Shown here one piece after another: positions 4,425 through 21,659 of a stretch of DNA of 21,659 nt. Source of the stretch: a virus; IMG/VR virus record IMGVR_UViG_3300022839_000106, positions 1 to 21,659 of that record, one strand, 5' to 3'. Numbering within the stretch: position 1 is the first letter of the stretch; the number at the start of each line of letters is the position of its first letter. Position numbers and translations under genes: made by a program. A model generated the notes under the pieces. It was not told the origin of the DNA, did not search any database, and worked only from the letters and a program-made list of their open reading frames with translations.

Positions 4425-4428
4425 ACTA

Positions 4429-4436
4429 TATTTACC
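4429..4436 (-). promoter_or_regulatory. Late-promoter-like element for gp14 (GGTAAATA)
   Basis: On the minus strand GGTAAATA lies 4 nt before the gp14 ATG. It resembles the T4 late consensus TATAAATA. Only five bases separate it from the divergent element serving gp13. Confidence 0.6.
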
Positions 4437-4441
4437 GTAAC

Positions 4442-4449
4442 GATAAATA
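4442..4449 (+). promoter_or_regulatory. Late-promoter-like element for gp13 (GATAAATA)
   Basis: GATAAATA matches seven of eight bases of the T4 late -10 consensus and ends 5 nt before the gp13 ATG. No Shine-Dalgarno site lies in the short gap, so a transcript starting from this element would be leaderless or nearly so. Confidence 0.65.
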
Positions 4450-4454
4450 CTTGT

Positions 4455-5210
4455 ATGAGCCAAATAGATATTACCAAACAAAGCGTTTACGACTACTGTA
4501 AAGCCATGCTGGGTGACGGCATGATTGATATAGAGCTAGATCCTATCCATTACGAAACTGCGCTAACACGCAGTTTAGCAGTATTTCGACAACGTGCAGA
4601 TAATGCTGTTGAAGAAAGTTACATCTTTTTGAATCTTGAAGAAGATCAAAACGAGTATATTTTGCCAAAAGAAATACAGGTTGTCCGACAGATTTATCGT
4701 AGAACTATTGGTTCGCGCACAGGCGGAGGAAGCGGCGGTACCGTATTTGAACCGTTTAACTTAGCCTACACAAATACCTATTTGTTATCATCAACAAACA
4801 TGGGTGGGCTAGCAACATACGAACTGTTTGCAGGCTATCAAGAAATGGTTGGTAAGATGTTTGGATCTTTTATTAACTTTAATTGGAATCCACAAAACCG
4901 TAAACTAACAATTCATCAACGTCCTCGCACTCAAGAGTCAGTTATGTTGTTGGTTTATAACGTCAAACCTGATCACGCAATTATCGAAGATACGTATGCA
5001 GGACAATGGATTAAAGATTACACCCTTGCTAATTGCAAAATGATGCTTGGTCAAGCCCGTGAAAAGTTTGCCAGCATTGCAGGTCCGCAGGGCGGCACAG
5101 CGCTTAACGGGGCAGCAATGAAAGCTGAAGGACAATCTGATATGGATAGACTAAGTGAAGACCTTAAGACTGGTATTACTACACAAGGTTGGGGATGGGT
5201 GATCGGATAA
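4455..5210 (+). CDS. gp13: Neck (head completion) protein, gp13-like
   Basis: This 251-residue protein opens with a helical segment (SVYDYCKAMLGDGMIDIEL) followed by DPIHYETALTRSLAVF, then YIFLNLEEDQNEYILPKEI and VVRQIYRR. That order (short N-terminal helix, degenerate ALxxSLxxF repeat, then an LxxxQxxYxLPxxI strand) is what I know of gp13 neck proteins in T4-like phages. T4 gp13 is 309 residues. A Gly-rich loop (TGGGSGGTVFEP) follows, and the end is WGWVIG. The neighbours agree: it is divergent from gp14/gp15, its partners in the neck. The downstream gene starts in its stop codon (TAATG). The identification rests on motif order and context rather than on invariant residues. Confidence 0.7.
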   Translation: MSQIDITKQSVYDYCKAMLGDGMIDIELDPIHYETALTRSLAVFRQRADNAVEESYIFLNLEEDQNEYILPKEIQVVRQIYRRTIGSRTGGGSGGTVFEPFNLAYTNTYLLSSTNMGGLATYELFAGYQEMVGKMFGSFINFNWNPQNRKLTIHQRPRTQESVMLLVYNVKPDHAIIEDTYAGQWIKDYTLANCKMMLGQAREKFASIAGPQGGTALNGAAMKAEGQSDMDRLSEDLKTGITTQGWGWVIG

Positions 5211-5548
5211 TGAAAGCTAATGAATTTATTTTTGAAGATGACGAAGAGTTATATACTGAAACTGCTAAAATGGTTTGGGGTGTTGGCAAGCACACTGCTC
5301 GTGGCGGCACAACTAAATTAAAATTCCGTTGTTCATCAGGACCAAGGAAGAGCCGACAAGTTAGTCATCCATCAAAATGCCACCAGCCTATGGATATGGC
5401 ACAGGCCCAGAAGATGAAAACTACTAGAGCACGTACTGCTCCTCAAGCAGCTAGAAGAACTCAAAGAACTAAATCTATCAATACTGCAAGTGTATTAGCT
5501 AATAGATTGAACACTAACAAACCAAAACAACCAAAACCTTATAGATAG
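5210..5548 (+). CDS. Small basic conserved phage protein, function unknown
   Basis: A 112-residue protein beginning MKANEFIFEDDEELY. The start at 5210 overlaps the gp13 stop and is preferred over a frame extension 7 codons upstream. After a short acidic head it is strongly basic: GGTTKLKFRCSSGPRKSRQV, then a Cys-containing SHPSKC segment, then an Arg/Lys/Thr-rich tail (TRARTAPQAARRTQRTK) ending KPKQPKPYR. I recall similar small basic proteins with an LKxRCxSGPRKxR core in T4-like phages of aquatic bacteria, with no assigned function. Coupling to gp13 suggests late expression and possibly a nucleic-acid-binding or virion-associated role, but that is inference. Confidence 0.7.
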   Translation: MKANEFIFEDDEELYTETAKMVWGVGKHTARGGTTKLKFRCSSGPRKSRQVSHPSKCHQPMDMAQAQKMKTTRARTAPQAARRTQRTKSINTASVLANRLNTNKPKQPKPYR

Positions 5549-5549
5549 G

Positions 5550-5578
5550 TTGACCCTATATCATTATTATAGTATAAT
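5550..5578 (+). promoter_or_regulatory. Sigma70-like promoter (upstream copy)
   Basis: TTGACC (5550-5555), a 17-bp spacer and TATAAT (5573-5578) make a near-consensus host promoter. A Shine-Dalgarno site TAGGAGA (5586-5592) and ATG (5598) follow. The inverted repeat ATAGG-TTGAC-CCTAT (5545-5559) brackets the -35 box and could be an operator or chance. Today it drives only a 34-codon remnant. Confidence 0.75.
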
Positions 5579-5597
5579 TGTCGTATAGGAGATAGTT

Positions 5598-5702
5598 ATG
5601 ATTATAGGTGTATGCGGGTTCTTAGAAAGGCCCACAACTGGTAGAACGCTGATTAACAGCGCTGACATCTATACTGCTGTTAGCAATCCATCGTTAAGAT
5701 GA
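5598..5702 (+). pseudogene. Fragment resembling the dNMP kinase N-terminus
   Basis: A 34-codon frame after a good promoter and Shine-Dalgarno site. Its first nine residues, MIIGVCGFL, closely match the start of the intact dNMP kinase gene downstream (AIIGVVGFI). Where GSGKDT should follow, the sequence changes to ERPTTGRTL and homology is lost. It looks like the front end of an older kinase gene cut off before the P-loop, with unrelated or homing-gene DNA behind it. A translated leader peptide or new micro-gene cannot be excluded. Confidence 0.6.
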
Positions 5703-5794
5703 CAATTTTTTGCAGTTCGTGATCCGATATACCACATACTAGTTGGTATATGCTTCCATTTATAAACAAATGCTTGAGATTGGTAATCTTTCAT
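5669..5794 (-). pseudogene. GIY-YIG homing endonuclease remnant (N-terminus only)
   Basis: A 41-codon frame read from ATG at 5794. It contains FVYKWKHIPTSMWYIGSRTA followed by KNCHLNDG, the GIY-YIG signature of a phage homing-nuclease type (Y-x-YKW ... WYIGSRTAKxCHxNDGY). The frame ends just after NDG with LLTAV and a stop. The catalytic Arg helix, Glu and all DNA-binding parts are absent, so it cannot be active. A perfect TATAAATA stands 7 nt upstream of the ATG on the same strand, suggesting it was once a late gene. It differs in sequence from the intact GIY-YIG gene at 2611-3159. Confidence 0.75.
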
Positions 5795-5801
5795 GACTTT
5801 G

Positions 5802-5809
5802 TATTTATA
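5802..5809 (-). promoter_or_regulatory. Late-promoter consensus TATAAATA before the GIY-YIG remnant
   Basis: The minus strand reads TATAAATA, identical to the T4 late -10 consensus, 7 nt before the remnant's ATG (5794). If still active it would send late transcripts antisense through the upstream promoter copy. Confidence 0.55.
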
Positions 5810-5816
5810 ATTATGG

Positions 5817-5845
5817 TTGACAAGTATATAAAAGTGTAATATAAT
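5817..5845 (+). promoter_or_regulatory. Consensus sigma70 promoter of the dNMP kinase gene
   Basis: TTGACA (5817-5822), a 17-bp spacer and TATAAT (5840-5845) are a perfect match to the bacterial housekeeping consensus. An AAGGA Shine-Dalgarno core sits about 8 nt before the ATG at 5865. This points to early transcription by unmodified host polymerase. Confidence 0.85.
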
Positions 5846-5864
5846 ATGAAAAAGGAAAAAACTT

Positions 5865-6521
5865 ATGGCTATAATTGGGGTAGTGGGATTTATAGGCAGC
5901 GGCAAAGATACTGTTGCGGATTATCTCGTAAATTTTCATCGGTATCGTAGAGAGAGCTTTGCATCAACTCTTAAAGATGCAGTGGCAGCAGTATTTGGTT
6001 GGGACCGAACTATGCTAGAAGGTCGTACTAAGGAAGCTCGCGAATGGCGAGAACAAGTAGATCCGTGGTGGGCAACTCGCCTAGCAATGCCTACACTAAC
6101 TCCTCGTTGGGTTCTCCAATATTGGGGTACAGAAGTATGCCGCAAAACATTCCATGACGATATCTGGATCGCTAGCTTGGAAAACAAACTCCGTCTAAGT
6201 AAAGATAATGTAGTAATTAGTGATTGTAGATTTCCTAATGAAATTCAAAGTATTCGAAATGCAGGTGGTAAGATTGTCTGGGTACAACGTGGAGAATTAC
6301 CTGATTGGTATCAAGTGGCTCTCGACGCAAACACAGGCCGCAATTATGCAATTCAAGAATTAAAGATGCGAAAAATTCATGCTAGTGAAACAGCATGGGT
6401 GGGCACAGACTTTGACGCTGTTCTAGACAACAATCATACTATTGACGCATTGTACAAGCAGGCCGCTTCAATAGTCAGCGATGAGGTCACCCTGCTTCCA
6501 GGCAATTCCTTCTTTGCCTAG
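5865..6521 (+). CDS. gp1: Deoxynucleoside monophosphate kinase, gp1-like
   Basis: A 218-residue P-loop kinase. T4 gp1 (241 residues) phosphorylates dNMPs, including the modified dHMP, to supply precursors for phage DNA. Visible features are the Walker A loop GFIGSGKDT (residues 8-16), then RESFASTLKDAVAAVFGW, then REQVDPWWA and LTPRWVLQYWGTEVCR, which I recognise from phage dNMP kinases, and VVISDCRFPNEI, which carries the conserved Asp/Arg of the family. The C-terminal tail after about residue 200 is encoded antisense to the end of the HNH-type gene and may be a lineage-specific extension. Unlike its late neighbours it has a consensus sigma70 promoter and a Shine-Dalgarno site, so it is an early gene sitting between late blocks. 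Substrate range cannot be read from the sequence. Confidence 0.85.
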   Translation: MAIIGVVGFIGSGKDTVADYLVNFHRYRRESFASTLKDAVAAVFGWDRTMLEGRTKEAREWREQVDPWWATRLAMPTLTPRWVLQYWGTEVCRKTFHDDIWIASLENKLRLSKDNVVISDCRFPNEIQSIRNAGGKIVWVQRGELPDWYQVALDANTGRNYAIQELKMRKIHASETAWVGTDFDAVLDNNHTIDALYKQAASIVSDEVTLLPGNSFFA

Positions 6522-6803
6522 TACTTGAGCACAGTTACAGCAAACAGTTTTTAGATTGTTAGGACGGCAGTTGTTTAAATTACCGTCTACGTGAAATACT
6601 CTAAACACTTCTTTATGCGGTGATCGAAACCCGCACTTATCGCATTGTAACTTTATCTGATACCCTGCTCTAACCCAGCGGGGTATTCCATGACCAATTC
6701 CGTTGGACATGCAGATTTCACAGAGACTTCGGTAGTATACTCTGTCATTTTTCTTGTAATTTACTGCTTTAGGGCGGTATCCGCACTTGCAAAGTGGTCT
6801 CAT
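6468..6803 (-). CDS. HNH-type zinc-binding protein (putative endonuclease)
   Basis: A 111-residue protein with two zinc-knuckle pairs: CKCG with CEICM in the first half, and CDKCGF with CCNC in the second. Between the latter lies VFHVDGNLNNCRPNNLKTV, the HVDGN ... NN ... NL core of HNH nucleases. In most HNH proteins the second pair is followed by His (CxxCH); here it is CCNCAQ, so the last metal-binding His seems to be missing and activity is uncertain. The conserved-looking end WKQGDLIADY lies inside the 54-bp convergent overlap with the dNMP kinase gene, which supports this frame. A GCTAAGTA element is 5 nt upstream of the ATG. It could be a homing nuclease or a DNA-binding derivative. Confidence 0.8.
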   Translation of the reverse strand: MRPLCKCGYRPKAVNYKKNDRVYYRSLCEICMSNGIGHGIPRWVRAGYQIKLQCDKCGFRSPHKEVFRVFHVDGNLNNCRPNNLKTVCCNCAQVLGKEGIAWKQGDLIADY

Positions 6804-6808
6804 AAAAA

Positions 6809-6816
6809 TACTTAGC
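6809..6816 (-). promoter_or_regulatory. Late-promoter-like element (GCTAAGTA) for the HNH-type gene
   Basis: The minus strand reads GCTAAGTA, then TTTTT, then ATG: the same 5-nt spacing as the plus-strand late genes, with the TAAGTA variant also seen before gp16. No Shine-Dalgarno site is visible. Confidence 0.45.
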
Positions 6817-6824
6817 CTTTTCTG

Positions 6825-6839
6825 CCCCTTTTTCAGGGG
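6825..6839. other. Short inverted repeat between the HNH-type and sheath genes
   Basis: CCCCT-TTTTC-AGGGG can form a 5-bp GC-rich hairpin. No T-run follows on either strand, so it is a poor intrinsic terminator candidate. It lies between two divergent late elements. Confidence 0.3.
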
Positions 6840-6867
6840 TTATAACGGACTATTTTTCCTGCATTCA

Positions 6868-6875
6868 GGTAAATA
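6868..6875 (+). promoter_or_regulatory. Late-promoter-like element (GGTAAATA) of the sheath gene
   Basis: GGTAAATA lies 34 nt before the sheath ATG. Unlike the other late elements it leaves a real leader with a Shine-Dalgarno site (AGGAGA, 6895-6900), as expected for a very highly expressed protein. Confidence 0.55.
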
Positions 6876-6909
6876 CTTTGAGTAAACTATTACCAGGAGA
6901 ATAGGGAAT

Positions 6910-9900
6910 ATGGCACTACAATCACCAGGCGTACAAGTTACAGTTATCGACGAGAGTTTTTACACACCAGCAGAGCCTGGTACTACTCCTCTTATCGTAG
7001 TAGCTACAGCGCAAGACAAAACGAACGGATCAGGGACAGCGGTTGCCTCATCCACAACAAAAGCAAATGCCGGCAAGGCATTTAAACTAACTAGCCAACG
7101 CGATCTTACTGATCTGTTTGGAGTACCATTCTTTGAGAAGACTGCTTCTTCAAGTCCAGTACACGGCGGTGAAAGAAACGAATACGGTCTGCTAGCAGCT
7201 TACAGCTTGCTAGGAGTCAGCAACGCAGCATTTATTGTACGTGCTGATGTTGATCTATCAGAGTTAGAAGCCCAAGCAACTGCTCCGGGAGCGGCCCCGA
7301 ATAACGGCAAATGGTGGGTTGATACGCAAGCGACTACTTGGGGCATCCAAGAGTGGAACAGTGCAGATGTTAGCACTACCGGTGGACAGAAGTTTGCAGC
7401 AAAAACTCCAATAGTACTAACAGACGACGACAGTTCTAAAATTGAATCAGGCGGTGTTCCAAAAGCATCTATTGGCTCTATCGGTGACTACTGTGTTGTG
7501 TTCCAAACAGTGCAAGGAAGCGGCGCAGGTAGCGAAGAAGCTAAAATTTATTTCAAGAGCGCTGGACTACCAGTCGCTGGTGTTGTTGCAGGTGCATGGG
7601 CGCTAGTTGGTTCTACAGAGTGGGCATTAAGCCACGCAACTGTAACTGGCTCTGGCTTTAGTACTCCTATAGCAGGCAACTTTACAATTAACGGAACAAC
7701 TATTACATTGACCGGTGGCGAAACTGTTGCAGCAACAGTTGCACTTATTAATGGATTAACTATTGTTGATGCTGAAGAAGCAAGAGGCGTATTTGCTAGA
7801 GCAGTTGGCGGCGAAATTTATCTTTATACTTCCGGTACTAACGATCAACCAGCTACTGTTGATTCTAGTCTGTCAACAACAATTACCATTGGTGCAGGCA
7901 CTACTACACTATCCTTATTAGGTTTAGTTGCTGGCACATTTTATGCTCCAGGTCTACAGCAAACTCCACATACGCAAGTTCCAACATGGAAGAGCAACGA
8001 TGCAACTGCACGCCCAACAGGTTCAGTATGGTTAAAGACAACTGAGCCAAACAATGGCGCACGTTGGAGAGTTAAGCAATGGAATTCAGCGACTGCTACT
8101 TGGGTAGCAAGCGAAGCTCCTATCTATGCTACTACAAATGCAGCATTGTATTACTTAGACCGCAGCGGCGGCGGAATCAACATTAGTGCTAACGCATTAA
8201 TGGTTCAAACAAACAGCCAAGAAGGCTCGTTCAATGACATAGTGCCTGATAGTGTTACATTTAGAATGTGGAGACGGTCTGTTGCGGCCGGACAATACAC
8301 AACAATTGCTACTAGCATAACAGTAGGATCAGTTGCATCTACTGGTCCAAAGTCATTCACAATTGCAGAAAGTGTTAAGGGTGTTATTGCATTAGGTACA
8401 GCAAAGACTATTTCATTCACTGCTACCAACGACATGGACGATGCTGAACTAATTGCTCAAGCAATTAACGCAGCAGGATTTGCAAACATTGAAGCAGAAT
8501 CAGTAGCAGCAAGTACCGCGCCTACTAATGCAACTAACGTATTGAGCATTTACCACAAGTTAGGAGGCGACTTTAGAATTGTCGACACTGACAGTGTATT
8601 TGGTAACTTGTTTGCCAGCGCACTAAATGTATATGCTGCGCCTGCAGGTTCAAGTGATGACTATGTTGTCTCAGCCTGGGCACCATTTACAACTACTGCC
8701 TTTAGTGCATCTGCTAGCGCTCCTCTAAACGAAGCAGATGATGGACAATTATGGTACAGCTCTAGTGTTGGCGATGTTGACATTATGATACATGATGGTA
8801 CAACTTGGGTTGGTTACAGAAACGCTGCATCAGATTTTAATAGCGTAGATACAACACGTATTGGATACACTCCAGTGGTATCAGCAAGCAATCCTTGGAT
8901 AGCCGGAACACTAACAGGCGACTTGTGGATTAGCACAGCCGACTTAGAAAATTATCCAACAATTTACCGTTACAATTCAGCAAGAACTGATATTGCCGAC
9001 GGAAAGAATCGTTGGGAATTAGTTGACAAGACTGATCAACAAACTGAAGAAGGTATCTTGTTTGCCGATGCACGTTATGACTTGAACGGCGAAGAAACTA
9101 TTGCAGCTTCTATTAGCGATCTAGCTAACAGTAACTTCTTAGACTTTGATGCTCCAGATCCAGATCTATATCCAAGAGGCATGTTGCTGTGGAACTTGCG
9201 CAGAAGTGGCGGCAACGTTAAGCGTTACCAAAACAACTACGTGAATACAGCAAGTGATAATGTACGTTTTAACAACAACGAATCTATGGCAGACTATGCA
9301 ACTGATCGTTGGGTTACAGCTAGCCCAAATAATGAAGACGGTTCTGGATCATTCCTACGTCATGCACAACGTGGTGTTGTAGTTGCTGCGCTTAAGAGTG
9401 CAGTTGATACAAGCAGCGAGATCCGTGACGAAGAAAGACGTAACTTTAACATTATTTCTTGCCCAGGATATCCTGAGCTAATGAGCAATCTAGTTAACTT
9501 GAATATCGATCGTGGAATTACAGCGTTTGTAGTTGGTGACACTCCACTACGTTTAGCTAGCGATGCTACAACATTAACTAACTGGGGTTCAAATGCAGAG
9601 CTAGTTACTGATAACGGCGATAAAGGGCTTGTTACTTACGACGAATACTTGGCTACGTTCTACCCAAGTGGATTTACCACAGACCTAAGCGGCGCCAATG
9701 CAGTTGTTCCTAGCTCACACATGATGCTTAAGACTATTGCACTAAGCGACAACGTTTCTTACCCATGGTTTGCTCCAGCAGGTACAAGACGCGGTGGCAT
9801 TACTAACGCTACAGCCGTTGGTTACATTGATGCAGCAAGCGGTGAATTCCAAACTGTTGCACTGAATGAAGGTCAACGTGATACGTTATATGACTTAAAA

Positions 9901-10290
9901 ATTAACCCAATTACATTCTTTAATGGTGTTGGACTAGTTAACTATGGTCAGAAGACTCGTGCAAGAAACGCATCAGCATTAGATCGTATCAACGTAGCAC
10001 GTTTAACAGTATACTTACGTAGTCAGTTAAACAAATTAGCTCGTCCGTTTATCTTTGAACCAAATGATAAGATTACTAGAGATGAAGTTAAACAAGCATG
10101 TGAAAGTCTATTGTTAGAATTGGTAGGCTTACGTGCATTGTATGACTTTGCTGTAGTGTGTGACGAGTCAAATAACACAGCGGCAAGAATTGATCGCAAC
10201 GAGCTTTGGGTAGATATCGCTATCGAACCCGTCAAGGCAGTTGAGTTCATTTACATTCCATTGCGTGTCAAGAACACAGGAGAGATTTAA
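6910..10290 (+). CDS. gp18: Tail sheath protein, gp18-like, unusually long
   Basis: A 1126-residue protein. Its N-terminus (MALQSPGVQVTVIDESFYTP) and C-terminal half are typical of contractile-tail sheath subunits. SYPWFAPAGTRRGGI, LYDLKINPITFF, DRINVARLTVYLRSQLNK, YDFAVVCDESNNT and DRNELWVDIAIEPVKAVEFI follow the order of T4 gp18. The subunits polymerise around the gp19 tube and contract on infection. T4 gp18 has 659 residues; the excess lies between about residues 120 and 720. That insert has four Trp-rich modules, near 130-151 (GKWWVDT), 368-407 (GSVWLKTT), 607-639 (GQLWYSSS ... HDGTTWVGY) and 664-707 (GDLWISTA), separated by Thr/Ala/Gly-rich beta-type sequence. The insert probably forms extra outward-facing domains (inference). 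A Shine-Dalgarno AGGAGA precedes the start and gp19 follows after 2 nt. Confidence 0.95.
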   Translation: MALQSPGVQVTVIDESFYTPAEPGTTPLIVVATAQDKTNGSGTAVASSTTKANAGKAFKLTSQRDLTDLFGVPFFEKTASSSPVHGGERNEYGLLAAYSLLGVSNAAFIVRADVDLSELEAQATAPGAAPNNGKWWVDTQATTWGIQEWNSADVSTTGGQKFAAKTPIVLTDDDSSKIESGGVPKASIGSIGDYCVVFQTVQGSGAGSEEAKIYFKSAGLPVAGVVAGAWALVGSTEWALSHATVTGSGFSTPIAGNFTINGTTITLTGGETVAATVALINGLTIVDAEEARGVFARAVGGEIYLYTSGTNDQPATVDSSLSTTITIGAGTTTLSLLGLVAGTFYAPGLQQTPHTQVPTWKSNDATARPTGSVWLKTTEPNNGARWRVKQWNSATATWVASEAPIYATTNAALYYLDRSGGGINISANALMVQTNSQEGSFNDIVPDSVTFRMWRRSVAAGQYTTIATSITVGSVASTGPKSFTIAESVKGVIALGTAKTISFTATNDMDDAELIAQAINAAGFANIEAESVAASTAPTNATNVLSIYHKLGGDFRIVDTDSVFGNLFASALNVYAAPAGSSDDYVVSAWAPFTTTAFSASASAPLNEADDGQLWYSSSVGDVDIMIHDGTTWVGYRNAASDFNSVDTTRIGYTPVVSASNPWIAGTLTGDLWISTADLENYPTIYRYNSARTDIADGKNRWELVDKTDQQTEEGILFADARYDLNGEETIAASISDLANSNFLDFDAPDPDLYPRGMLLWNLRRSGGNVKRYQNNYVNTASDNVRFNNNESMADYATDRWVTASPNNEDGSGSFLRHAQRGVVVAALKSAVDTSSEIRDEERRNFNIISCPGYPELMSNLVNLNIDRGITAFVVGDTPLRLASDATTLTNWGSNAELVTDNGDKGLVTYDEYLATFYPSGFTTDLSGANAVVPSSHMMLKTIALSDNVSYPWFAPAGTRRGGITNATAVGYIDAASGEFQTVALNEGQRDTLYDLKINPITFFNGVGLVNYGQKTRARNASALDRINVARLTVYLRSQLNKLARPFIFEPNDKITRDEVKQACESLLLELVGLRALYDFAVVCDESNNTAARIDRNELWVDIAIEPVKAVEFIYIPLRVKNTGEI

Positions 10291-10292
10291 AA

Positions 10293-10931: not shown

Positions 10932-10949
10932 TCTACGCAGTACTAGAAA

Positions 10950-10977
10950 AAGCTCGGACGCATTCCGGGCTTTTTTT
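10950..10977 (+). terminator. Intrinsic terminator after gp19
   Basis: AAGCTCGG and CCGGGCTT form an 8-bp stem (one T-G pair) around a 7-base loop, running into a T-tract to 10977. It closes the sheath-tube unit, and the next late element starts 5 bases downstream. Confidence 0.9.
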
Positions 10978-10981
10978 ACGG

Positions 10982-10989
10982 CATAAATA
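10982..10989 (+). promoter_or_regulatory. Late-promoter-like element (CATAAATA)
   Basis: CATAAATA ends 5 nt before the ATG at 10995. There is no Shine-Dalgarno site; the bases just upstream belong to the terminator T-tract. Confidence 0.65.
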
Positions 10990-10994
10990 TTATT

Positions 10995-12071
10995 ATGGCA
11001 AACTACTTTACTCGTTTTCTAAATGGCGTAGGCACAGGGTTAACTACTCCTAAGGGAATAGTTTCTAACTGGCAGCATGCCACGCGTCTATTCATAGACG
11101 ATACTATGAGATTAGCTCCTCGTACAAAGTTTAATTACTATGTGCGATTTGAGATTGATCCAACTGCCCACGCAGCAGCAGCATTTACAGCTAAACATTC
11201 TCAAGAAGTTGGTATGCTGGTTAAAACTACAGAACTTCCTAAATTTAAATTTGATACTCTTACAAAAAATCAATATAATAGAAAAAAGATTGTTTACAAA
11301 AACATCAACTACGAACCTATATCAATTACCATGCACGATGATGCAGCAGGTGTAACTAATGCATTATGGGCAATATACTACGGATACTATGTTGCTGATA
11401 GACACTTGCCAACTTCTGCGTATAACGAAAATAAATTCAGGCCTACAAAGACACCACTAGATAATTTTAGATACGGTATGGATAATAATATTTCTGTTCC
11501 TTTCTTTAAAAGCATTAGCATATACACTATGGCGCGCAGACGCTTTACCGGATACACGTTAATTAATCCAAAAATTACTAACTGGAATCACGGATCATTA
11601 GATTATGCAGCAGGTAGTGAAGTACTAGAAAGTCAAATGACTTTAGAATATGAAGCGGTAAAGTATAGTGCGGGTAATGTAGGATATGATAGTCCAAAAG
11701 GATTTGCCACACTGCACTATGATACTGTACCAAGTCCATTAAGTGTAGCAGGCGGCGGCGTAAGCAACTTAACAGGTGACGGCGGAGTCCTTGATGGATT
11801 AGAAAGTATATTTGGCGATTTAGCTAATGGTAATACTTTTGACAGTTTTGGGGGATTCTTAGGGAGTGCTATTAAAACGGTCAACACCTACAAGAATTTT
11901 AAAGAACTTTCAAAAGATAGTCTTAAGAGAGAAGCAATAAATGTTTTAAGCAACCCAGCAAATATTGCAACCGCAGTAAGCACCGTAGGCGGCCTTGTAG
12001 GAACAATATTTCCTAAAAGCTCCAGCAACACAGAAACAACTACTGCTTCACCAAAGAACCTAGCACCGTAA
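10995..12071 (+). CDS. Tail-tube-fold structural protein (gp54/gp48-like baseplate tube initiator or cap candidate)
   Basis: A 358-residue protein. Residues about 40-120 carry a gp19-like tube-fold pattern: RTKFNYYVRFEIDP, GMLVKTTELPKFKFDTLT, NQYNRKKIVYKNINYEPI, SITMHDDAAGVTNALW. Next come RRRFTGYTLINPKITNWNHG and LESQMTLEYEAVKY, typical of tube-type barrels. The C-terminal third is Gly-rich, then helical, ending in Ser/Thr-rich sequence. I recall homologues in T4-like cyanophages annotated as structural proteins beside the tail genes. T4 has two larger gp19 relatives, gp54 (tube initiator) and gp48 (tube cap), and this is probably one of them, but I cannot say which. It follows gp19 directly, in its own late unit with its own promoter-like element. 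Confidence 0.65.
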   Translation: MANYFTRFLNGVGTGLTTPKGIVSNWQHATRLFIDDTMRLAPRTKFNYYVRFEIDPTAHAAAAFTAKHSQEVGMLVKTTELPKFKFDTLTKNQYNRKKIVYKNINYEPISITMHDDAAGVTNALWAIYYGYYVADRHLPTSAYNENKFRPTKTPLDNFRYGMDNNISVPFFKSISIYTMARRRFTGYTLINPKITNWNHGSLDYAAGSEVLESQMTLEYEAVKYSAGNVGYDSPKGFATLHYDTVPSPLSVAGGGVSNLTGDGGVLDGLESIFGDLANGNTFDSFGGFLGSAIKTVNTYKNFKELSKDSLKREAINVLSNPANIATAVSTVGGLVGTIFPKSSSNTETTTASPKNLAP

Positions 12072-12072
12072 T

Positions 12073-12441: not shown

Positions 12442-12881
12442 TGGCAAAGTTTGCACAAGGTAGATATGAAGTAAAAAATCCCGAAAAGTATGTTGGGAAG
12501 AAAACTCCTATGTCTCGCAGCTCTTGGGAATTTATCTTTATGAAAATGCTAGACGAACATCCTAGCGTTGAGAAGTGGGCAAGCGAAAGCGTACAAATAC
12601 CGTATAGGGATCCGCTCACTGGCAAATATACCATTTATGTTCCTGATTTCTTTGTAGTGTACAACGATAAAAACGGCGCGAAACATGCAGAGCTAATAGA
12701 AGTAAAGCCGTCTAGTCAAACATTTATAGATAAAGTAGGAAAGAGTCAATACAATCAGCAACAGTATGTTAAGAATGTAGCCAAATGGGAAGCTGCTACT
12801 GCATGGTGCAAACAGCAAGGTATCAAATTTCGAATAGTAAATGAAGGCGATATTTTCCACCAAGGCAGTAAACGTAGATAA
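12441..12881 (+). CDS. gp4: Head completion protein gp4-like, PD-(D/E)xK nuclease-type fold
   Basis: A 146-residue protein close in length to T4 gp4 (150), needed to finish filled heads so that tails can join. The nuclease-type residues are visible in order: SRSSWE with Glu30, YVPDF with Asp69, and ELIEVKP with Glu87 and Lys89. This E ... PD ... E-x-K layout matches the TnsA-like branch of the PD-(D/E)xK fold. The N-terminus (MAKFAQGRYEVKNPEKYVGK) is Lys/Arg-rich. The start overlaps the previous stop (TAATG), and the late element of gp16 overlaps its last codons. A nuclease that trims or protects packaged DNA ends is the family expectation rather than something shown here. Confidence 0.88.
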   Translation: MAKFAQGRYEVKNPEKYVGKKTPMSRSSWEFIFMKMLDEHPSVEKWASESVQIPYRDPLTGKYTIYVPDFFVVYNDKNGAKHAELIEVKPSSQTFIDKVGKSQYNQQQYVKNVAKWEAATAWCKQQGIKFRIVNEGDIFHQGSKRR

Positions 12882-12884
12882 GTA
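12877..12884 (+). promoter_or_regulatory. Late-promoter-like element (GATAAGTA) of gp16
   Basis: GATAAGTA ends 5 nt before the gp16 ATG and overlaps the gp4 stop codon. It is a one-base variant of TAAATA with the same spacing; no Shine-Dalgarno site is present. Confidence 0.5.
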
Positions 12885-12889
12885 ATTAT

Positions 12890-13366
12890 ATGACCAAAAA
12901 GTTAGAAGAATTGTTCAACCTAGACTCAGCAGAGCCAGAAGCTAAGCCAGTTATTGAACCTCCTACCCATTCTCAAGTTAAAAGCATAACTGATAGTTAC
13001 AACGCAGTAGCAGAGATCACTCGAACATTACCGCAGATTACAGAGTTGGACGACTTAGGCGACGACGAACTTGACGATCTAGCAGCAAAAGCAGAAAAAG
13101 CCTATGACGAACTAATGGATCTAGGTATGAACGTAGAAGTACGATATTCTAGCAGAATATTTGAAGTTGCTAGCAGTATGCTAGGACATGCTATCACCGC
13201 AAAGACTAACAAAGTAGATAAAAAGCTCAAAGCTATTGATCTACAGTTAAAGAAACTAAAAATGGATAAAGATTCACCAGAAGACCCTAACGATGTGCTA
13301 AAAGGTTCAGGTTATATAATCACAGACCGTAATGCATTGCTCAAGAGTTTGGGTCAAAAGGACTAA
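12890..13366 (+). CDS. gp16: Terminase small subunit, gp16-like
   Basis: A 158-residue protein, close to T4 gp16 (164). In T4, gp16 forms rings that recognise DNA and stimulate the gp17 packaging motor. The N-terminal third is acidic and Pro-rich. A helical core follows (SITDSYNAVAEITRTLP, then an Asp-rich turn and a long helix around KAEKAYDELMDLG), then SRIFEVASSMLGHAITAKTN and a Lys-rich coiled-coil-like segment (DKKLKAIDLQLKKLKMDK). The end, GSGYIITDRNALLKSLG, corresponds to the FxGSxxEL(M/L) tail of gp16 proteins. Context supports the call: gp4 precedes it and gp17 lies three genes downstream. Primary similarity is weak, as is usual for small terminases. Confidence 0.78.
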   Translation: MTKKLEELFNLDSAEPEAKPVIEPPTHSQVKSITDSYNAVAEITRTLPQITELDDLGDDELDDLAAKAEKAYDELMDLGMNVEVRYSSRIFEVASSMLGHAITAKTNKVDKKLKAIDLQLKKLKMDKDSPEDPNDVLKGSGYIITDRNALLKSLGQKD

Positions 13367-13369
13367 ATA
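13362..13369 (+). promoter_or_regulatory. Late-promoter-like element (ACTAAATA)
   Basis: ACTAAATA ends 5 nt before the ATG at 13375 and overlaps the gp16 stop codon. An AAGGA lies just upstream but is 12 nt from the ATG, far for a Shine-Dalgarno site. Confidence 0.55.
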
Positions 13370-13374
13370 CTGAT

Positions 13375-13962
13375 ATGAAAACTTTTAAAGAATATCTTGC
13401 TGAAAGCAAAAAAGCATACCCTTTTAGAGTAAAAGTCGCAGGCGAATTGCCTAAGGATTTTGAAAAAAAATTAAAGGAAATGCTCGGGGCAGCTAATCCA
13501 ACAATCATTGAAAAGTCTAAAACATCTGCTCAAGCGATTCCGTTGGATTTCCCAGAACTTGCAAACATGGAAGTGTACACATTCGAAGTGGTTTGTGAAT
13601 ATCCAATTACTGCACCCGAACTTGCTGTACACGTTGGCCACTTAGTGCCTGAATCTAATTTCAGAGTGCGTAACGGCGGCGACCCAGCTGAAGCAGAACA
13701 TGCTACATTTGACCTAGACCCTAGCGGTGAAGCAGTACTAGATGAAGCAGAGTACAAAAATGAAAAAATTAAACACAAAGATTATTTTGGGGATGATTTT
13801 AACAAGAGTTTCTTAAAAGATTTAGAGAAAACGGCTAAAGCCCGTAAGAAAGAAGACGGTGTTGGGGAATACAAATTACCTAAGGCAAAACAAGACAAAG
13901 CTGGATCTATGGCTCCTATGAGCAAGATTAGTAATCCAGATCCACTTAAAGGAAAAGTATAA
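13375..13962 (+). CDS. Probable virion protein with capsid-targeting-like N-terminus
   Basis: A 195-residue protein starting MKTFKEYLAESKK. T4 internal head proteins II and III start MKTYQEFIAEA and are cut after that Glu by the prohead protease, so the YLAE-S stretch could be a capsid-targeting peptide cleaved after Glu10. The next domain (about 17-95: YPFRVKVAGELPKDFEKKLK ... VYTFEVVCEYPITAPELAVH) looks like an alpha/beta ferredoxin-type fold and matches proteins I recall as virion structural proteins of aquatic phages. The rest is charged and probably flexible (KHKDYFGDDFNKSFLKDLEK; ending NPDPLKGKV). It lies between small and large terminase genes and its stop overlaps the next start (TAATG). 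An internal head role is inferred. Confidence 0.7.
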   Translation: MKTFKEYLAESKKAYPFRVKVAGELPKDFEKKLKEMLGAANPTIIEKSKTSAQAIPLDFPELANMEVYTFEVVCEYPITAPELAVHVGHLVPESNFRVRNGGDPAEAEHATFDLDPSGEAVLDEAEYKNEKIKHKDYFGDDFNKSFLKDLEKTAKARKKEDGVGEYKLPKAKQDKAGSMAPMSKISNPDPLKGKV

Positions 13963-15118: not shown

Positions 15119-15133
15119 TACAGCTATAAAACC

Positions 15134-15161
15134 AAATAGGCTCTTCGGAGCCTATTTTTTT
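15134..15161 (+). terminator. Intrinsic terminator with UUCG tetraloop
   Basis: AAATAGGCTC and GAGCCTATTT form a perfect 10-bp stem closed by a C(TTCG)G loop, running into a T-tract. It separates the gp16-to-virion-protein unit from gp17. The gp17 late element begins 2 bases later. Confidence 0.93.
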
Positions 15162-15162
15162 C

Positions 15163-15170
15163 AGTAAATA
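15163..15170 (+). promoter_or_regulatory. Late-promoter-like element (AGTAAATA) of gp17
   Basis: AGTAAATA ends 5 nt before the gp17 ATG. The terminator occupies the sequence immediately upstream, so gp17 would depend on this element or on read-through. No Shine-Dalgarno site is visible. Confidence 0.6.
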
Positions 15171-15175
15171 ACAAT

Positions 15176-16762
15176 ATGGCAAAATCACTAGACGGTAATT
15201 TAATTAAGAAAGCACATGCTCCGATCCGATACACGTTAGAGGAAGTTAAGCATCTTGAAGCATGTATGCATCCGGTAGACGGTCCGTTATACTTCTGTAA
15301 AAACTTTTTAAAGATTCAACATCCTGTACGTGGATCGATTAAGTTTGAACCGTATGAATACCAAGAGAGGCTAATACAGTCATACCACAACTACAAACAG
15401 TCTATTGGTATGCTGCCTCGTCAGATGGGTAAGACTACTTGCGCTACGGGATATTTACTATGGTACACAATGTTTGTGCCAGAAGCACAAGTATTAATTG
15501 CTGCTCATAAGTACGAAGGTGCGCAGGATATTATGAATCGTTACCGATTCGGTTATGAGAACTTGCCTGACTTTATTCGTGCAGGTGTATACAGCTACAA
15601 CAGAAACACAATTGAATACGACAACGGCGCACGTATTCAAGCAACTACTACAACAGAAAACACTGGTCGTGGTAAGTCACTATCATTAATTTACTGTGAT
15701 GAATTCGCATTCGTGCAGCCGCCAGAGAAAGCTAAAGAGTTCTGGACGGCACTAAGCCCTACATTGTCAACAGGTGGTAAGTGTATCATTACATCGACAC
15801 CAAACAGCGACGAAGATCAATTTGCTTTAATCTGGACAGAAGCTAATAAGAAGTTTGACGAGTATGGCAACGAACAAGAACTTGGCACAAACGGATTCCA
15901 CAGCTTCTTTGCACACTGGAATGAACATCCAGATCGAGATGAGAAGTGGGCGGCAGTAGAACGTGCTAAAATTGGTCCTGAACGTTTCCGGCGCGAGTTT
16001 GATTGCGAATTCTTGATCTTTGACGAAACCTTGATTAATACTGTAAAACTTGCAGAGCTGTCTGGAGTTGATCCTGTAATGACTATGGGGCAAACTAGAT
16101 TCTACAAAGACATTGATCCTAAGGCAACTTACTTATTGTCGTTAGATCCCAGTCTGGGAACAGGCGGCAACTATGCAGCTATTCAAGTATTTGAAATGCC
16201 TAGTATGATACAGGTTGCAGAGTGGCGTCATAATTTAACTCCTATACAACAGCAGATAAAGCACATGAGAGAGATACTGCGATATATCCAAGATCGTGGC
16301 ATAGAAAAAGGCGGTGCGCCCCAGATGTATTACTCAGTAGAAAACAACAGTCTAGGTGAAGCAGCACTTATTGTTATCAGTGACATCGGTGAAGAAAACT
16401 TTCCAGGACTATTCCTAAGCGAACCTATTCGCAAAGGGCATGTGCGTAAATTTCGTAAGGGATTTAATACAACACATCGCAGTAAAGTCACAGCATGTAG
16501 TCAGTTTAAGAACTTAGTCGAAACTAACAAACTAATTATTAAATCAAAACCTCTATTATCAGAACTTAAAACATTCGTAGCCAGCGGCCTAGGATTTAAT
16601 GCTAAATCAGGAGAAAATGACGATCTAATAAGCGCTGCATTGCTAATTATACGTATGGCAGATGTATTAGCAGATTGGGATCCTAAGATTTACGAAAAAA
16701 TGTCTGAACGACTTTCTGAAGAACAAATGCCAATGCCGATCTTTGTAAGCACAGGATATTGA
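15176..16762 (+). CDS. gp17: Terminase large subunit (packaging ATPase and nuclease), gp17-like
   Basis: A 528-residue packaging motor that drives DNA into the prohead and cuts concatemers. The N-terminal ATPase shows Walker A PRQMGKTT (residues 81-88), Walker B LIYCDEF (171-177, with Asp175 and catalytic Glu176) and a coupling motif ITSTPNS. The C-terminal RNase H-type nuclease shows SLDPSLGTGG with Asp324, YSVENNS with Glu389, and NDDLISAAL with Asp482/483. It is shorter than T4 gp17 (610) but all catalytic motifs are present. The start was chosen at ATG 15176, 5 nt after a late-promoter-like element. The last codons overlap the late element of the next gene. Confidence 0.96.
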   Translation: MAKSLDGNLIKKAHAPIRYTLEEVKHLEACMHPVDGPLYFCKNFLKIQHPVRGSIKFEPYEYQERLIQSYHNYKQSIGMLPRQMGKTTCATGYLLWYTMFVPEAQVLIAAHKYEGAQDIMNRYRFGYENLPDFIRAGVYSYNRNTIEYDNGARIQATTTTENTGRGKSLSLIYCDEFAFVQPPEKAKEFWTALSPTLSTGGKCIITSTPNSDEDQFALIWTEANKKFDEYGNEQELGTNGFHSFFAHWNEHPDRDEKWAAVERAKIGPERFRREFDCEFLIFDETLINTVKLAELSGVDPVMTMGQTRFYKDIDPKATYLLSLDPSLGTGGNYAAIQVFEMPSMIQVAEWRHNLTPIQQQIKHMREILRYIQDRGIEKGGAPQMYYSVENNSLGEAALIVISDIGEENFPGLFLSEPIRKGHVRKFRKGFNTTHRSKVTACSQFKNLVETNKLIIKSKPLLSELKTFVASGLGFNAKSGENDDLISAALLIIRMADVLADWDPKIYEKMSERLSEEQMPMPIFVSTGY

Positions 16763-16768
16763 TAAATA
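16761..16768 (+). promoter_or_regulatory. Late-promoter-like element (GATAAATA)
   Basis: GATAAATA ends 5 nt before ATG 16774 and overlaps the end of gp17 (its TGA stop is 16760-16762). It supports the start at 16774 over the in-frame TTG at 16759. Confidence 0.65.
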
Positions 16769-16773
16769 TAACT

Positions 16774-18513
16774 ATGGACGCAACTAACAACATCGCAACA
16801 GATTTATTCTACAAAATTCGTAGCAGATTCTCTGGTCTAAAATTAGGTACAGAAATTGGCGAAATTACTATAAATCCACAAGAAGCACGTTTCTTTGATT
16901 TTGACTATATGGAAGGTGAAACTCCTATTGGTCACGTTAGCATTAGTCTAGCAGAAGATAATTCCATGAAGATTTACTTCAGTCACGGAATTACAGAATC
17001 AATGGACGCAGAGCAAAAAGACAGGTGGTACGGATTCCTAAAAGAATTACGTATGTTTGCCAAGCGTAGATTACTAAACTTTGACACTAGAGATATTGCC
17101 AAAGACAACCTAGATAAAAGAGATTACAAATTTTTAACTCGTAATGCTCAACCTAAACAAGAAGCACAAAATTCAGTTCCAGTCGGAGAAGGCGTTATGG
17201 CAGAAAGCACAATGTACGGTACTAAAAGCGTTAGTTACCAAAAATTAGAAAATACACGATTGATTGTTAAACACAGTCAAAAGTTAAATGACGATATGGC
17301 ACCGGGTGCCAGAAGTCGTAATATCGCTGGCCTGTTTGTAGAAAACGCAGACGGTGAAAGATTTAAATATCCATTCATTCACTTAGCAGGCGCCCGTGCT
17401 ATGCAACGCCATGTGGCTAACGGTGGCTTACCGTACGATGCCATTGGTGAAAGCATCATTAAGATGAGTGAAGAGATTGCACAATTAAAGAGCTTTGGCA
17501 ATTATGTTGTACGCAATGATCTAATGAACAGCGACACGAACAGTGTTGTTGAGCGTAGTACACAAGCACTTAACGGATTACGTGAGCAAATAAAAGCACT
17601 ATCAAAACAAGGCCACTATGAGGCTTACAAAGAAAGTTTCCAGGCACAGCAACCTATGGAAGTTCCGCAAGAAATTGCAGAACAATTTAAAGATCAATTT
17701 ACAGTGAAGAATTTCAAAGAAGATATGGCCGCAGTATTTCCTGTACTGTATCGTTTAATGAAAGAAAGTGAACTAGGCTACGACGACATAGTCGCCATGA
17801 CACAAGAAGAAATCCAAACTGAAGACGAGGATTTCAACGCAGACCGCTATGACCCATTTGCAAAGTTTGAACAATGGGCTATGAATTTAGGCGAAGAAAG
17901 CGCAATACAAAGCCAAGATGAAGAAGAACAGGCAGCAGCAGCACAACAATTACAAGAGTTAGTTAGCCAGGCATTCCCCGCAGGCGTAGACGGTTCTAAT
18001 GCAATTGAAAGTCTTAAAGGCATCATAGATGATCCACGATTAGAAGAAGAAATTAAGACGCAATCTAAAGAAGATCCGGAAGCAGATGTAAGAGGCCTAG
18101 TACAAGTATGGCTGGAAGCCAATGCTCCAGAAGTGTTAGAGGTATTAGATTTTGGTGATTTTCAACCAGAACCAGTGGGCGGTGAGCCGGCGACAGACCA
18201 AGGGGGTGAAGAAACTGCGCCAGAAGAAGTCCCACAGGAATCGGAAGAACAATCGCCGGAAGAACATAGTGGCAAGATGAACGTACAAGAATTAGCTGAG
18301 TTTATGCACAGCTTTTATGATAAAGATTCAGGCACATTTCCCAAAGGCCCAGAAGGCGTTTGCACTATGGTAGGTAAGAAGTTTGGTGAGCAGGCAGAAA
18401 CAGTAGCTCGTAAGATGGCTGAAAGAATGGCGCCGCAACAACAAGCTCCAGAACCAGCAGAGAATCCAGAGCTAGCTCGTATTAAAGCACTATCAGGCAT
18501 GTACAGTATGTAA
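16774..18513 (+). CDS. Large conserved phage protein of unknown function (possible virion/head protein)
   Basis: A 579-residue protein starting MDATNNIATDLFYKIRSRFS. The first 135 residues (ARFFDFDYMEG, KDRWYGFLKELRMFAKRRLL, NFDTRDIAKDNLDKRDYKFL) form a recognisable block that I recall from proteins of T4-like marine phages with no assigned role. A second block follows (MYGTKSVSYQKLENTRLIVK ... RSRNIAGLFVENADGERFKY ... IHLAGARAMQRHVANGG). After about residue 350 the protein is acidic with Gln/Ala-rich helices and a Glu/Pro linker. It ends with a compact domain (ELAEFMHSFYDKDSGTFPKG ... FGEQAETVARKMAERM). The start at 16774 fits the late element. A strong terminator ends the unit. Late expression and size suggest a structural or assembly role. 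Confidence 0.75.
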   Translation: MDATNNIATDLFYKIRSRFSGLKLGTEIGEITINPQEARFFDFDYMEGETPIGHVSISLAEDNSMKIYFSHGITESMDAEQKDRWYGFLKELRMFAKRRLLNFDTRDIAKDNLDKRDYKFLTRNAQPKQEAQNSVPVGEGVMAESTMYGTKSVSYQKLENTRLIVKHSQKLNDDMAPGARSRNIAGLFVENADGERFKYPFIHLAGARAMQRHVANGGLPYDAIGESIIKMSEEIAQLKSFGNYVVRNDLMNSDTNSVVERSTQALNGLREQIKALSKQGHYEAYKESFQAQQPMEVPQEIAEQFKDQFTVKNFKEDMAAVFPVLYRLMKESELGYDDIVAMTQEEIQTEDEDFNADRYDPFAKFEQWAMNLGEESAIQSQDEEEQAAAAQQLQELVSQAFPAGVDGSNAIESLKGIIDDPRLEEEIKTQSKEDPEADVRGLVQVWLEANAPEVLEVLDFGDFQPEPVGGEPATDQGGEETAPEEVPQESEEQSPEEHSGKMNVQELAEFMHSFYDKDSGTFPKGPEGVCTMVGKKFGEQAETVARKMAERMAPQQQAPEPAENPELARIKALSGMYSM

Positions 18514-18528
18514 GCAGCAATGCTTCAT

Positions 18529-18558
18529 GAAAAGGACTTTTCGAAGTCCTTTTCTTTT
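18529..18558 (+). terminator. Intrinsic terminator before the recombination module
   Basis: GAAAAGGACTT and AAGTCCTTTTC form an 11-bp stem with a TTCG loop, followed by TTTT. It ends the gp17 unit and insulates the gp32 promoter region. Confidence 0.88.
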
Positions 18559-18592
18559 GGCTTAATAAAACCAATAAAGTAGTAGATAATCG

Positions 18593-18621
18593 TTGACAAT
18601 ACTAAATAAAAAGCGCATAAT
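18593..18621 (+). promoter_or_regulatory. Sigma70-like promoter of gp32
   Basis: TTGACA (18593-18598), a 17-bp spacer and CATAAT (18616-18621): one mismatch from the housekeeping consensus. The spacer contains CTAAATAA, which could add a late element. Expected transcript start is near 18628, giving a leader of about 55 nt. Confidence 0.85.
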
Positions 18622-18625
18622 AGCT

Positions 18626-18673
18626 TATGTGCATTAAGGCATATACAACATTTTTATTTTAGGCTATAGGAGG
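18626..18673 (+). promoter_or_regulatory. gp32 mRNA leader: 5' hairpin, A/U-rich tract and Shine-Dalgarno (candidate autoregulatory operator)
   Basis: The arms TATGTGC (18626-18632) and GCATATA (18639-18645) pair over 7 bp (one G-U) around a 6-base loop, almost exactly at the predicted 5' end. An unstructured A/U-rich tract (18646-18661) and the Shine-Dalgarno TAGGAGG (18667-18673) follow, 9 nt before the ATG. In T4, gp32 represses its own translation by nucleating on a 5' pseudoknot and coating the A/U-rich leader. The layout here is analogous, though I see a hairpin and no clear pseudoknot. Confidence 0.5.
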
Positions 18674-18682
18674 CATACAAAA

Positions 18683-19687: not shown

Positions 19688-19696
19688 GCAACATAA

Positions 19697-19725
19697 AAGA
19701 GTGGGACAGGTTCCCACTCTTCTTC
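19697..19725 (+). terminator. Hairpin terminator between gp32 and uvsX
   Basis: AAGAGTGGGA and TCCCACTCTT form a perfect 10-bp stem around a 5-base loop. The trailing sequence is only moderately T-rich (CTTCATTTA), so read-through into uvsX is plausible; it may instead stabilise the 3' end of the abundant gp32 message. Confidence 0.75.
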
Positions 19726-19741
19726 ATTTACAGGGACTAAT

Positions 19742-20821: not shown

Positions 20822-21048
20822 AAGAAGATTTAATTACGGATATTTGGACTATTGTTATTGAACATATCCCTGAGAAAGCAAGAAAAGATGTTGCAGCAGA
20901 TTTTGTAAACGCTTTGCTAGATCATGGGATTAAAGAAAGCGTACTAGAAAGTTTAATGGGCGTAGATCCATATCTAGATCAGGCTATTGAATATGCAGTA
21001 GACGGTGAAGAAATCGAAGAACAAGACGAAGAAGATTACGAGGATTAA
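20818..21048 (+). CDS. Small acidic protein between uvsX and the uvsY-like gene
   Basis: A 76-residue protein, MKEDLITDIWTIVIEHIPEK then KDVAADFVNALLDHGI, ending in a strongly acidic tail (EEIEEQDEEDYED). It overlaps uvsX by ATGA and abuts the next gene, so the three are co-translated. Small acidic proteins of this kind are, as I recall, a common companion of uvsX in T4-like phages of aquatic bacteria; the function is not established. The acidic tail could mimic DNA or contact gp32/UvsX, but that is speculation. Confidence 0.75.
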   Translation: MKEDLITDIWTIVIEHIPEKARKDVAADFVNALLDHGIKESVLESLMGVDPYLDQAIEYAVDGEEIEEQDEEDYED

Positions 21049-21504
21049 ATGAACTGGTACCACAAGGTTAGTAAAGATATAAGCAATATTCCCGATGCTG
21101 TGGCTTATTATGAAGCTGAATTAATTCATGCAAAACAAGATGTCCGCATAGCGGGAAACATTGAGAAAGCAAGTTCGCAAATGCCCGGCATCGTAGAAAA
21201 CCGCTTTAATCAACTTCAAGAGATTGAAGGTATCCTTGAGTACTTACACATTGAACTTCGTAGACTTCGTAGTCAATATTTTCGCAAGTATCTTGAAAAT
21301 TATCAACGAGCTTTATCTTCTAGGGACTGTGAAAAGTTCGTAGAAGGTGAAGCTGACGTTGTAGACTTTGAAAAAATTATCAACGATTTTGCCCTATTAC
21401 GTAACAAGTGGTTGGGCATTATTAAAGCACTTGATCAGAAACAATGGCATCTAAGCAATATTGTTAAATTACGAGTATCAGGATTAGAAGATGCCAGTCT
21501 TTAA
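21049..21504 (+). CDS. uvsY: Recombination mediator, UvsY-like
   Basis: A 151-residue mostly helical protein; T4 UvsY is 137. UvsY loads UvsX on gp32-covered ssDNA. The N-terminus contains SKDISNIPDAVAYYEAELIH. The middle has IVENRFNQLQEIEGILEYLH followed by the basic ELRRLRSQYFRKYLENYQRA. The C-terminal part (VDFEKIINDFALLRNKWLGI then IKALDQKQWHLSNIVKLRVS) follows the T4 UvsY order of an Asp/Val segment, a long helix and an AIKSRGFAIKHIQDMR-type end. Sequence identity with T4 is low, so the call rests on that pattern, size, and position directly after uvsX and the acidic protein. The start codon follows the previous stop with no gap. Confidence 0.65.
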   Translation: MNWYHKVSKDISNIPDAVAYYEAELIHAKQDVRIAGNIEKASSQMPGIVENRFNQLQEIEGILEYLHIELRRLRSQYFRKYLENYQRALSSRDCEKFVEGEADVVDFEKIINDFALLRNKWLGIIKALDQKQWHLSNIVKLRVSGLEDASL

Positions 21505-21524
21505 ACACAGCTATAATAGTAGCA

Positions 21525-21532
21525 GATAAATA
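21525..21532 (+). promoter_or_regulatory. Late-promoter-like element (GATAAATA) within an inverted repeat
   Basis: GATAAATA ends 5 nt before the ATG at 21538. It lies inside GCAGATA-AA-TATCTGC (21522-21537), whose 7-bp arms are perfectly complementary. A TATAAT at 21512-21517 has no convincing -35 partner. Confidence 0.6.
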
Positions 21533-21537
21533 TCTGC

Positions 21538-21659
21538 ATGAAACGTATTATACTTGTCACTGGCGGATACGACCCTTTACACAGTGGGCACATTGCCTAC
21601 TTCAACGCAGCAAAAGAGTTAGGCGATGTTTTAGTCGTTGGTATCAATAGTGACGGCTG
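21538..21659 (+). CDS. Cytidylyltransferase-like nucleotidyltransferase (3' partial)
   Basis: Only 40 codons are in the window. After a beta strand ([11 protein letters not shown]) comes [11 protein letters not shown], containing the H-x-G-H signature of the nucleotidyltransferase superfamily that activates sugars or lipid head groups as CMP/AMP derivatives, then [16 protein letters not shown], the next strand of the Rossmann-like fold. The opening resembles glycerol-3-phosphate cytidylyltransferase and the HldE/RfaE adenylyltransferase domain; the specific substrate cannot be told from this part. It has its own late element, so it is probably not part of the uvsX unit. Confidence 0.85.

Follow-up and report, generated by a model that had tools for sequence, protein, structure and literature searches.

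The locus described here raises the question of why a late-promoter-like box, TAA[A/G]TA, stands 4–5 nt upstream of the start codons of a set of genes, known virion genes among them, and where the transcripts of these genes would begin. Late transcription in T4 is a textbook case, in which most late genes have a leader with a Shine-Dalgarno (SD) site. The window, i.e. the whole stretch of DNA analysed, is a 21,659-base IMG/VR fragment of an uncultured giant phage. It carries T4-type genes for gp14-type, gp13, dNMP kinase, sheath, two tail-tube-type, head closure, TerL, gp32 and UvsX proteins. Among cultured phages no TerL exceeds 53% identity to that of the window (the top match being PA5oct), and those of the best 80 IMG/VR loci are 85–100% identical; identity reaches 100% in two of the 80, one of which lies on a 126 kb contig (G007). 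These best 80 loci by TerL were taken as the set of relatives and gave 670 ORF starts once duplicate start regions had been removed. In this and the other large surveys an ORF start is the most upstream ATG of the longest open frame and not a curated start. Moreover, larger contigs of the same clade (126–364 kb) were examined, namely G001 (364 kb), G003 (of which 260 kb were read) and G007 (126 kb).

Boxes and start codons in the window

Among the 23 curated gene starts of the window, eight have the box at a gap of 5 nt, one (gp14) at 4 nt and one (sheath) at 34 nt, and no other box lies within 60 nt of a start. The sites, together with three contrasting upstream regions and a terminator, are as follows.

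4424..4434, minus strand: box TAAATA (4429–4434), 4-nt spacer TAGT and ATG of the gp14-type virion protein gene (3159–4424); gap 4
4444..4457, plus strand: box TAAATA, 5-nt spacer and ATG of the gp13 head-tail adaptor gene (4455–5210); gap 5 in 8/8 orthologues
6801..6814, minus strand: box TAAGTA, 5-nt spacer and ATG of the gene for a small cysteine-rich HNH-like protein (6468–6803); gap 5 in 28/28 distinct orthologous regions
10984..10997, plus strand: box TAAATA, 5-nt spacer and ATG of the second tail-tube-type protein gene (10995–12071); gap 5 in 33/33 orthologues
12879..12892, plus strand: box TAAGTA and ATG of 12890–13366 (PHROG of unknown function); gap 4 (22) or gap 5 (10) in 32/32 orthologues
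13364..13377, plus strand: box TAAATA and ATG of the virion structural protein gene 13375–13962; gap 5 in 30/30 orthologues
15134..15157, plus strand: terminator hairpin and adjoining T-run, which end shortly before the TerL box; T-run kept in 32/35 orthologous regions
15165..15178, plus strand: box TAAATA, 5-nt spacer and ATG of gp17/TerL (15176–16762); gap 4–6 in 27/30 orthologues
16763..16776, plus strand: box TAAATA immediately 3′ of the TerL stop, and ATG of the virion structural protein gene 16774–18513; gap 4–5 in 32/32 orthologues
21527..21540, plus strand: box TAAATA, 5-nt spacer and ATG (gene start 21538) of an ORF that resembles an RfaE-type nucleotidyltransferase and runs off the contig
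6870..6909, plus strand (contrast): box TAAATA and, after a gap of 34 nt that holds SD AGGAG, the sheath gene (6910); predicted leadered late promoter
5817..5864, plus strand (contrast): sigma70 promoter TTGACA-17-TATAAT and SD before the dNMP kinase gene; early-type control
18593..18682, plus strand (contrast): sigma70-like promoter TTGACA-17-CATAAT and SD AGGAG before gp32

All nine boxes placed by a preliminary description of this DNA are present, with a gap of 5 at 4455, 10995, 12890, 13375, 15176, 16774 and 21538 on the plus strand and at 6803 on the minus strand, and a gap of 4 at 4424 on the minus strand. Two of its gene names fared less well: 'gp16' at 12890 has no terminase-family support, the gene matching a PHROG of unknown function, and the HNH label at 6803 found no PHROG match. 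The gp13 and gp14 boxes lie back to back. At 12890 and at 13375 the TAA of the box doubles as the stop codon of the upstream gene, and upstream of the second tail-tube gene a T-run lies at most 22 nt from the box, a T-run being found in 34/34 orthologous regions. A G001 gene with the same arrangement as the ORF at 21538 (L098:3700–4458) matches a heptose kinase/adenylyltransferase PHROG.

The gap-5 box precedes 8/23 gene starts vs 1/707 non-start ATGs (Fisher P = 2e-12). TAARTA-N5-ATG occurs nine times in the window against 0.92 expected, a count reached in 0/100 shuffles, and eight of the nine are real starts, the other being a chance match inside the sheath gene (8144, minus strand). When the 30-nt upstream regions were shuffled, 20,000 trials never gave more than two gap-5 sites. 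TAAATA itself is rarer in the window than chance would have it (15 seen, 26.7 expected), and therefore the pattern is one of positioning and not of AT-richness. Moreover, the gap-5 peak of TAAATA stands far above those of all permutations of its letters, overlapping shifted words excepted.

Several other features of the window were observed. The HNH-like gene lies antisense between dNMP kinase and sheath and is found in 40/80 loci; to judge by its late-type promoter, the protein may act in the virion or in packaging and is less likely to be a mobile endonuclease. The sheath protein (6910–10290) is 1126 aa, far longer than T4 gp18, and its gene is followed by the two tail-tube-type paralogues. 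The stretch 5548–5865 is mostly non-coding, with two sigma70-like promoters and a short stretch that looks like a disrupted copy of the N-terminus of dNMP kinase (MIIGVCGF). An acidic tandem repeat, DQDGDGDHDMDDH, at 14270–14440 inside the 13962–14678 protein resembles calcium-binding loops.

Conservation and start context in relatives

Across the 670 distinct ORF starts of the 80 loci the box is found at a gap of 5 in 171, 4 in 34 and 6 in 4, at 7–15 nt in only 2, and at 16–39 nt in 48. The distribution is thus bimodal (4–6, then at least 16). Such a split would arise if transcripts had either no leader or one with room for an SD, the near-empty range of 7–15 nt corresponding to leaders that would be too short for one. 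The larger contigs behave likewise, with 24 boxes at gap 4–6 and 52 at 16–39 in G001, 19 and 33 in G003, and 13 and 14 in G007. Enrichment of the fixed spacing first noticed in the window is thus very strong in the window itself, in the 80 relatives and in the 126–364 kb contigs. Each genome has roughly 12 to 24 fused-box starts, a minority of its genes. Some of these are known virion genes, whereas for many genome-wide targets no function is assigned: of 19 box targets scanned outside the gene set of the window, 12 had no PHROG match, and these are putative late genes.

Genes that have no box in the window have none in the relatives either, the sole exception being one gp32 with a gap of 3. 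In most gene families the box is nearly invariant, whereas up to 75% of comparisons show a different base in the spacer, and among orthologues of TerL and of 12890 the gap sometimes shifts by one base. The four distinct gp14 orthologues have the box at 7 nt, with the start chosen automatically, and judged from sequence gp14 is the weakest case of the arrangement. We considered whether start codons had been wrongly called. In the fused-box families codon-type (third-position) variation begins at codon 2, which identifies the box-proximal ATG as the true start and rules this out. No further in-frame ATG occurs in the next 19 codons in all seven families except gp13.

The context of these starts is distinctive. 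An SD is found at 25/209 (12%) of the gap 4–6 starts, which is the background level of internal ATGs (965/8496, 11%), whereas 38/46 starts with a distant box have one and, in the genomes as a whole, 502/1117 starts (45%) do. The SD sites that had been noted at the dNMP kinase, sheath, gp19 and gp32 genes recur in 23/23, 20/20, 25/25 and 23/23 distinct orthologous regions, respectively, and sheath orthologues also keep the box at 30–36 nt in 20/20. The base preceding the ATG is C or T in 171/171 gap-5 starts vs about 45% at other starts, a bias that an RNA start, with its pyrimidine-purine step, would produce. At the leadered boxes of these genomes a purine at +1 is not clearly preferred, so the initiator argument is drawn from the gap-5 set only. 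Where an open frame follows at box+5 the start codon is ATG in 39 cases, GTG in 1 and TTG in 0. The base before TAA[A/G]TA is A in 56% and the first T is not conserved; this T is also weak in the late promoters of RB49, KVP40 and S-PM2 (PMC1524935).

Late sigma genes and distribution among phages

The preliminary description had attributed these boxes to a late sigma/clamp promoter system and proposed a search for gp55, gp33 and gp45 homologues. The sigma half is borne out: a gp55-type late sigma is encoded in 8/9 clade contigs tested (phrog_12791, E 1e-77 to 1e-82). Clamp activation is unsupported in the giant-phage clade, where neither gp33 nor gp45 (the latter sought by Pfam, PHROG and our own HMM) gave a convincing match in contigs that are incomplete. 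T4 itself has a gp55/gp33/gp45 system. The clade shares with T4 late promoters the TAAATA/TAAGTA box, the lack of a −35 consensus, a gp55-type sigma and the virion genes served. However, T4 has no box at gap 4–6, most lying 17–29 nt upstream with an SD between (SD in 26/29 for boxes at 16–45 nt), whereas in the present phage box and start codon are fused. For phages of the CBB/GAP32 type a late promoter ATAAATA and a gp55 homologue have been described, with no gp33 or gp45 found (PMC5259590). CBB thus resembles the giant clade in box, sigma and undetected gp33/gp45, but has 0 boxes at gap 4–6, its boxes lying mostly 28–39 nt upstream.

The arrangement is absent from most cultured phages that were compared. 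No box was found at gap 4–6 from ORF starts in T4, Syn9 or CBB, and two were found in PA5oct. Counts of the N5 pattern were near those of reversed-pattern controls in these four and in P-SSM2, KVP40, phiM12, Cr30, phiW-14, Phosso, Atu_ph07 and 2.275.O; the largest excess among cultured T4-superfamily phages was in CBB (25 vs 19, none at ORF starts), and counts in the latter eight were not above controls except in phiW-14 (1 vs 0). Four KVP40 and P-SSM2 matches that were looked up were not at annotated starts. Uncultured PA5oct-type relatives (L281–L360; TerL 53–59% identical to PA5oct) have a gap mode of 5 (93 starts) and a smaller peak at 7–8 nt (47).

Pelagibacter phage HTVC008M has 13 boxes at gap 4–6, 10 of them at gap 5, and those in the annotated stretch read are all on annotated starts. 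The virion genes concerned encode tape measure, DNA end protector, head closure, tail-tube cap and baseplate wedge proteins, and the others include oxygenase, curli and cyclase genes. Uncultured relatives of HTVC008M keep the arrangement down to about 41% query-protein identity. This phage shares the fused gap-5 arrangement with the giant clade but belongs to the Kyanoviridae and encodes both gp33 and gp45. The arrangement is missing from Syn9 and P-SSM2, which belong to this family too, and judged by presence and absence a separate origin in pelagimyophages is therefore the simplest reading. A published attempt to predict the middle and late promoters of pelagimyophages did not succeed (PMC7029224); for the late ones, a box placed right at the ATG may explain this. 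On balance we favour the view that a gp55 late promoter has become fused to many late start codons in two separate lineages of the T4 superfamily, the uncultured giant phages and the pelagimyophages, whereby part of late translation would be leaderless and SD-independent and could escape host or phage control of SD-led mRNAs.

A phage-encoded bS21 is present in the two largest clade contigs (G001 and G002; L368 and L367) and in HTVC008M. However, PA5oct, Phosso, Atu_ph07 and 2.275.O also encode it and lack the arrangement, and bS21 was therefore rejected as a sufficient cause. Searches of genome contigs for a host gave no relative with TerL, and with S21 only a 41% match to a Bacillales MAG, which is not usable.

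Predicted leaderless late transcripts

In T4 the late promoter TATAAATA occupies −13 to −6 (PMC1524935), and a 5-nt gap therefore puts +1 on the A of AUG. The earlier proposal that transcripts begin at or beside the AUG is thus in accord with published geometry. We regard leaderless late mRNAs from the box-fused starts as the best reading of these data, with a probability of a little over 0.8. TAA[A/G]TA would serve as the −10-type element in late promoters of the T4 kind, recognised by host RNA polymerase in complex with the phage gp55-type sigma. Transcription would begin on the A of the start codon, a 4-nt gap requiring a one-base shift, so that late mRNAs of gp13, gp14, TerL, the tube paralogue and other virion proteins would begin 5′-AUG and ribosomes would load at this terminal AUG without an SD. 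Genes further down a transcript, which either lie directly behind the previous stop or have an SD, are probably translated by coupling or from that SD. Other late genes (sheath) would keep a conventional leader and SD, and early-type genes (dNMP kinase, gp32) would use sigma70-like promoters and an SD. Promoter activity, the exact +1, leaderless translation and timing are all predicted here from the DNA. At 12890 and 13375, with the box overlapping the previous stop, and at 16774, with the box following it, read-through mRNAs may also carry the gene, there without an SD of their own.

Three other explanations were weighed. It is unlikely that the late promoter is real but has starts 1–4 nt before the AUG, or mixed starts, giving very short leaders. 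The one-base variation of the gap in some genes would fit this, as would the secondary 7–8 nt peak of the PA5oct-type relatives, which would leave a leader of 1–3 nt; the exact 5-nt mode, the invariable pyrimidine before the ATG and the T4 box coordinates, which place +1 at the A, argue against it. We consider it very unlikely that the box is a translation-initiation element (an A/U-rich ribosome-binding or standby site of the SD-less Bacteroidetes type), with transcription beginning elsewhere upstream. A/U-rich Kozak-like start contexts are known in Flavobacteria, and a fixed distance between box and ATG and the missing SD would be compatible with such an element. However, the same box stands 30–36 nt ahead of sheath genes, whose starts are equipped with an SD, the box sequence is that of the published T4 late promoter, the pyrimidine before the ATG is a feature of RNA starts, and these genomes, unlike Bacteroidetes, use SD sites elsewhere. 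Moreover, the tube-paralogue and TerL boxes are closely preceded by a T-run, which at TerL belongs to a hairpin terminator, and this would leave no upstream RNA.

Chance or compaction of AT-rich intergenic sequence, with TAA stops overlapping the box, has a negligible probability, even though the box shares its TAA with a stop codon at 12890 and 13375. TAAATA is rarer than expected in the window, starts and other ATGs differ at P = 2e-12, letter permutations of the box give no such peak, and T4, Syn9 and CBB, at 35–41% GC, have no box at gap 4–6; together, the window statistics and the phage comparisons rule out chance or AT-richness.

Leaderless mRNAs, which are relatively resistant to kasugamycin, are known from lambda cI and, as fusions of a −10 box to the ATG, from Deinococcus and Mycobacterium. 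Like these, the genes described here have a −10 box a few bases from the ATG, an expected 5′-terminal AUG, a nearly obligatory ATG and no SD. However, the known cases are single genes or use a host vegetative sigma, whereas here a phage late-sigma promoter serves a set of late genes. The giant phages phiKZ and AR9 also have short late motifs (TATG in phiKZ), but their late promoters are read by a phage-encoded non-virion RNA polymerase, and the motif found here is TAARTA-N5-ATG. Transcription in phiKZ starts on the G of TATG, and the UTRs of AR9 measure 26–491 nt (PMC5312081). Both T4-type late promoters and leaderless mRNAs have been described, but a search of mainly open-access literature found no paper on leaderless T4-type late mRNAs or on a systematic fusion of the two.

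If our reading is true, leaderless translation would be a regular route to virion proteins and not a rarity. It yields a one-base prediction of transcription starts for dozens of uncultured phages, for which HTVC008M provides a cultured test case, and the arrangement aids the calling of gene starts in such genomes. Lastly, we observed divergent gene pairs with back-to-back boxes, gp14/gp13 in the window (4424–4455) and DNA end protector/head closure in HTVC008M (L200:12393–12944), in which both starts have a gap of 4–5 and lie within about 30 bp.
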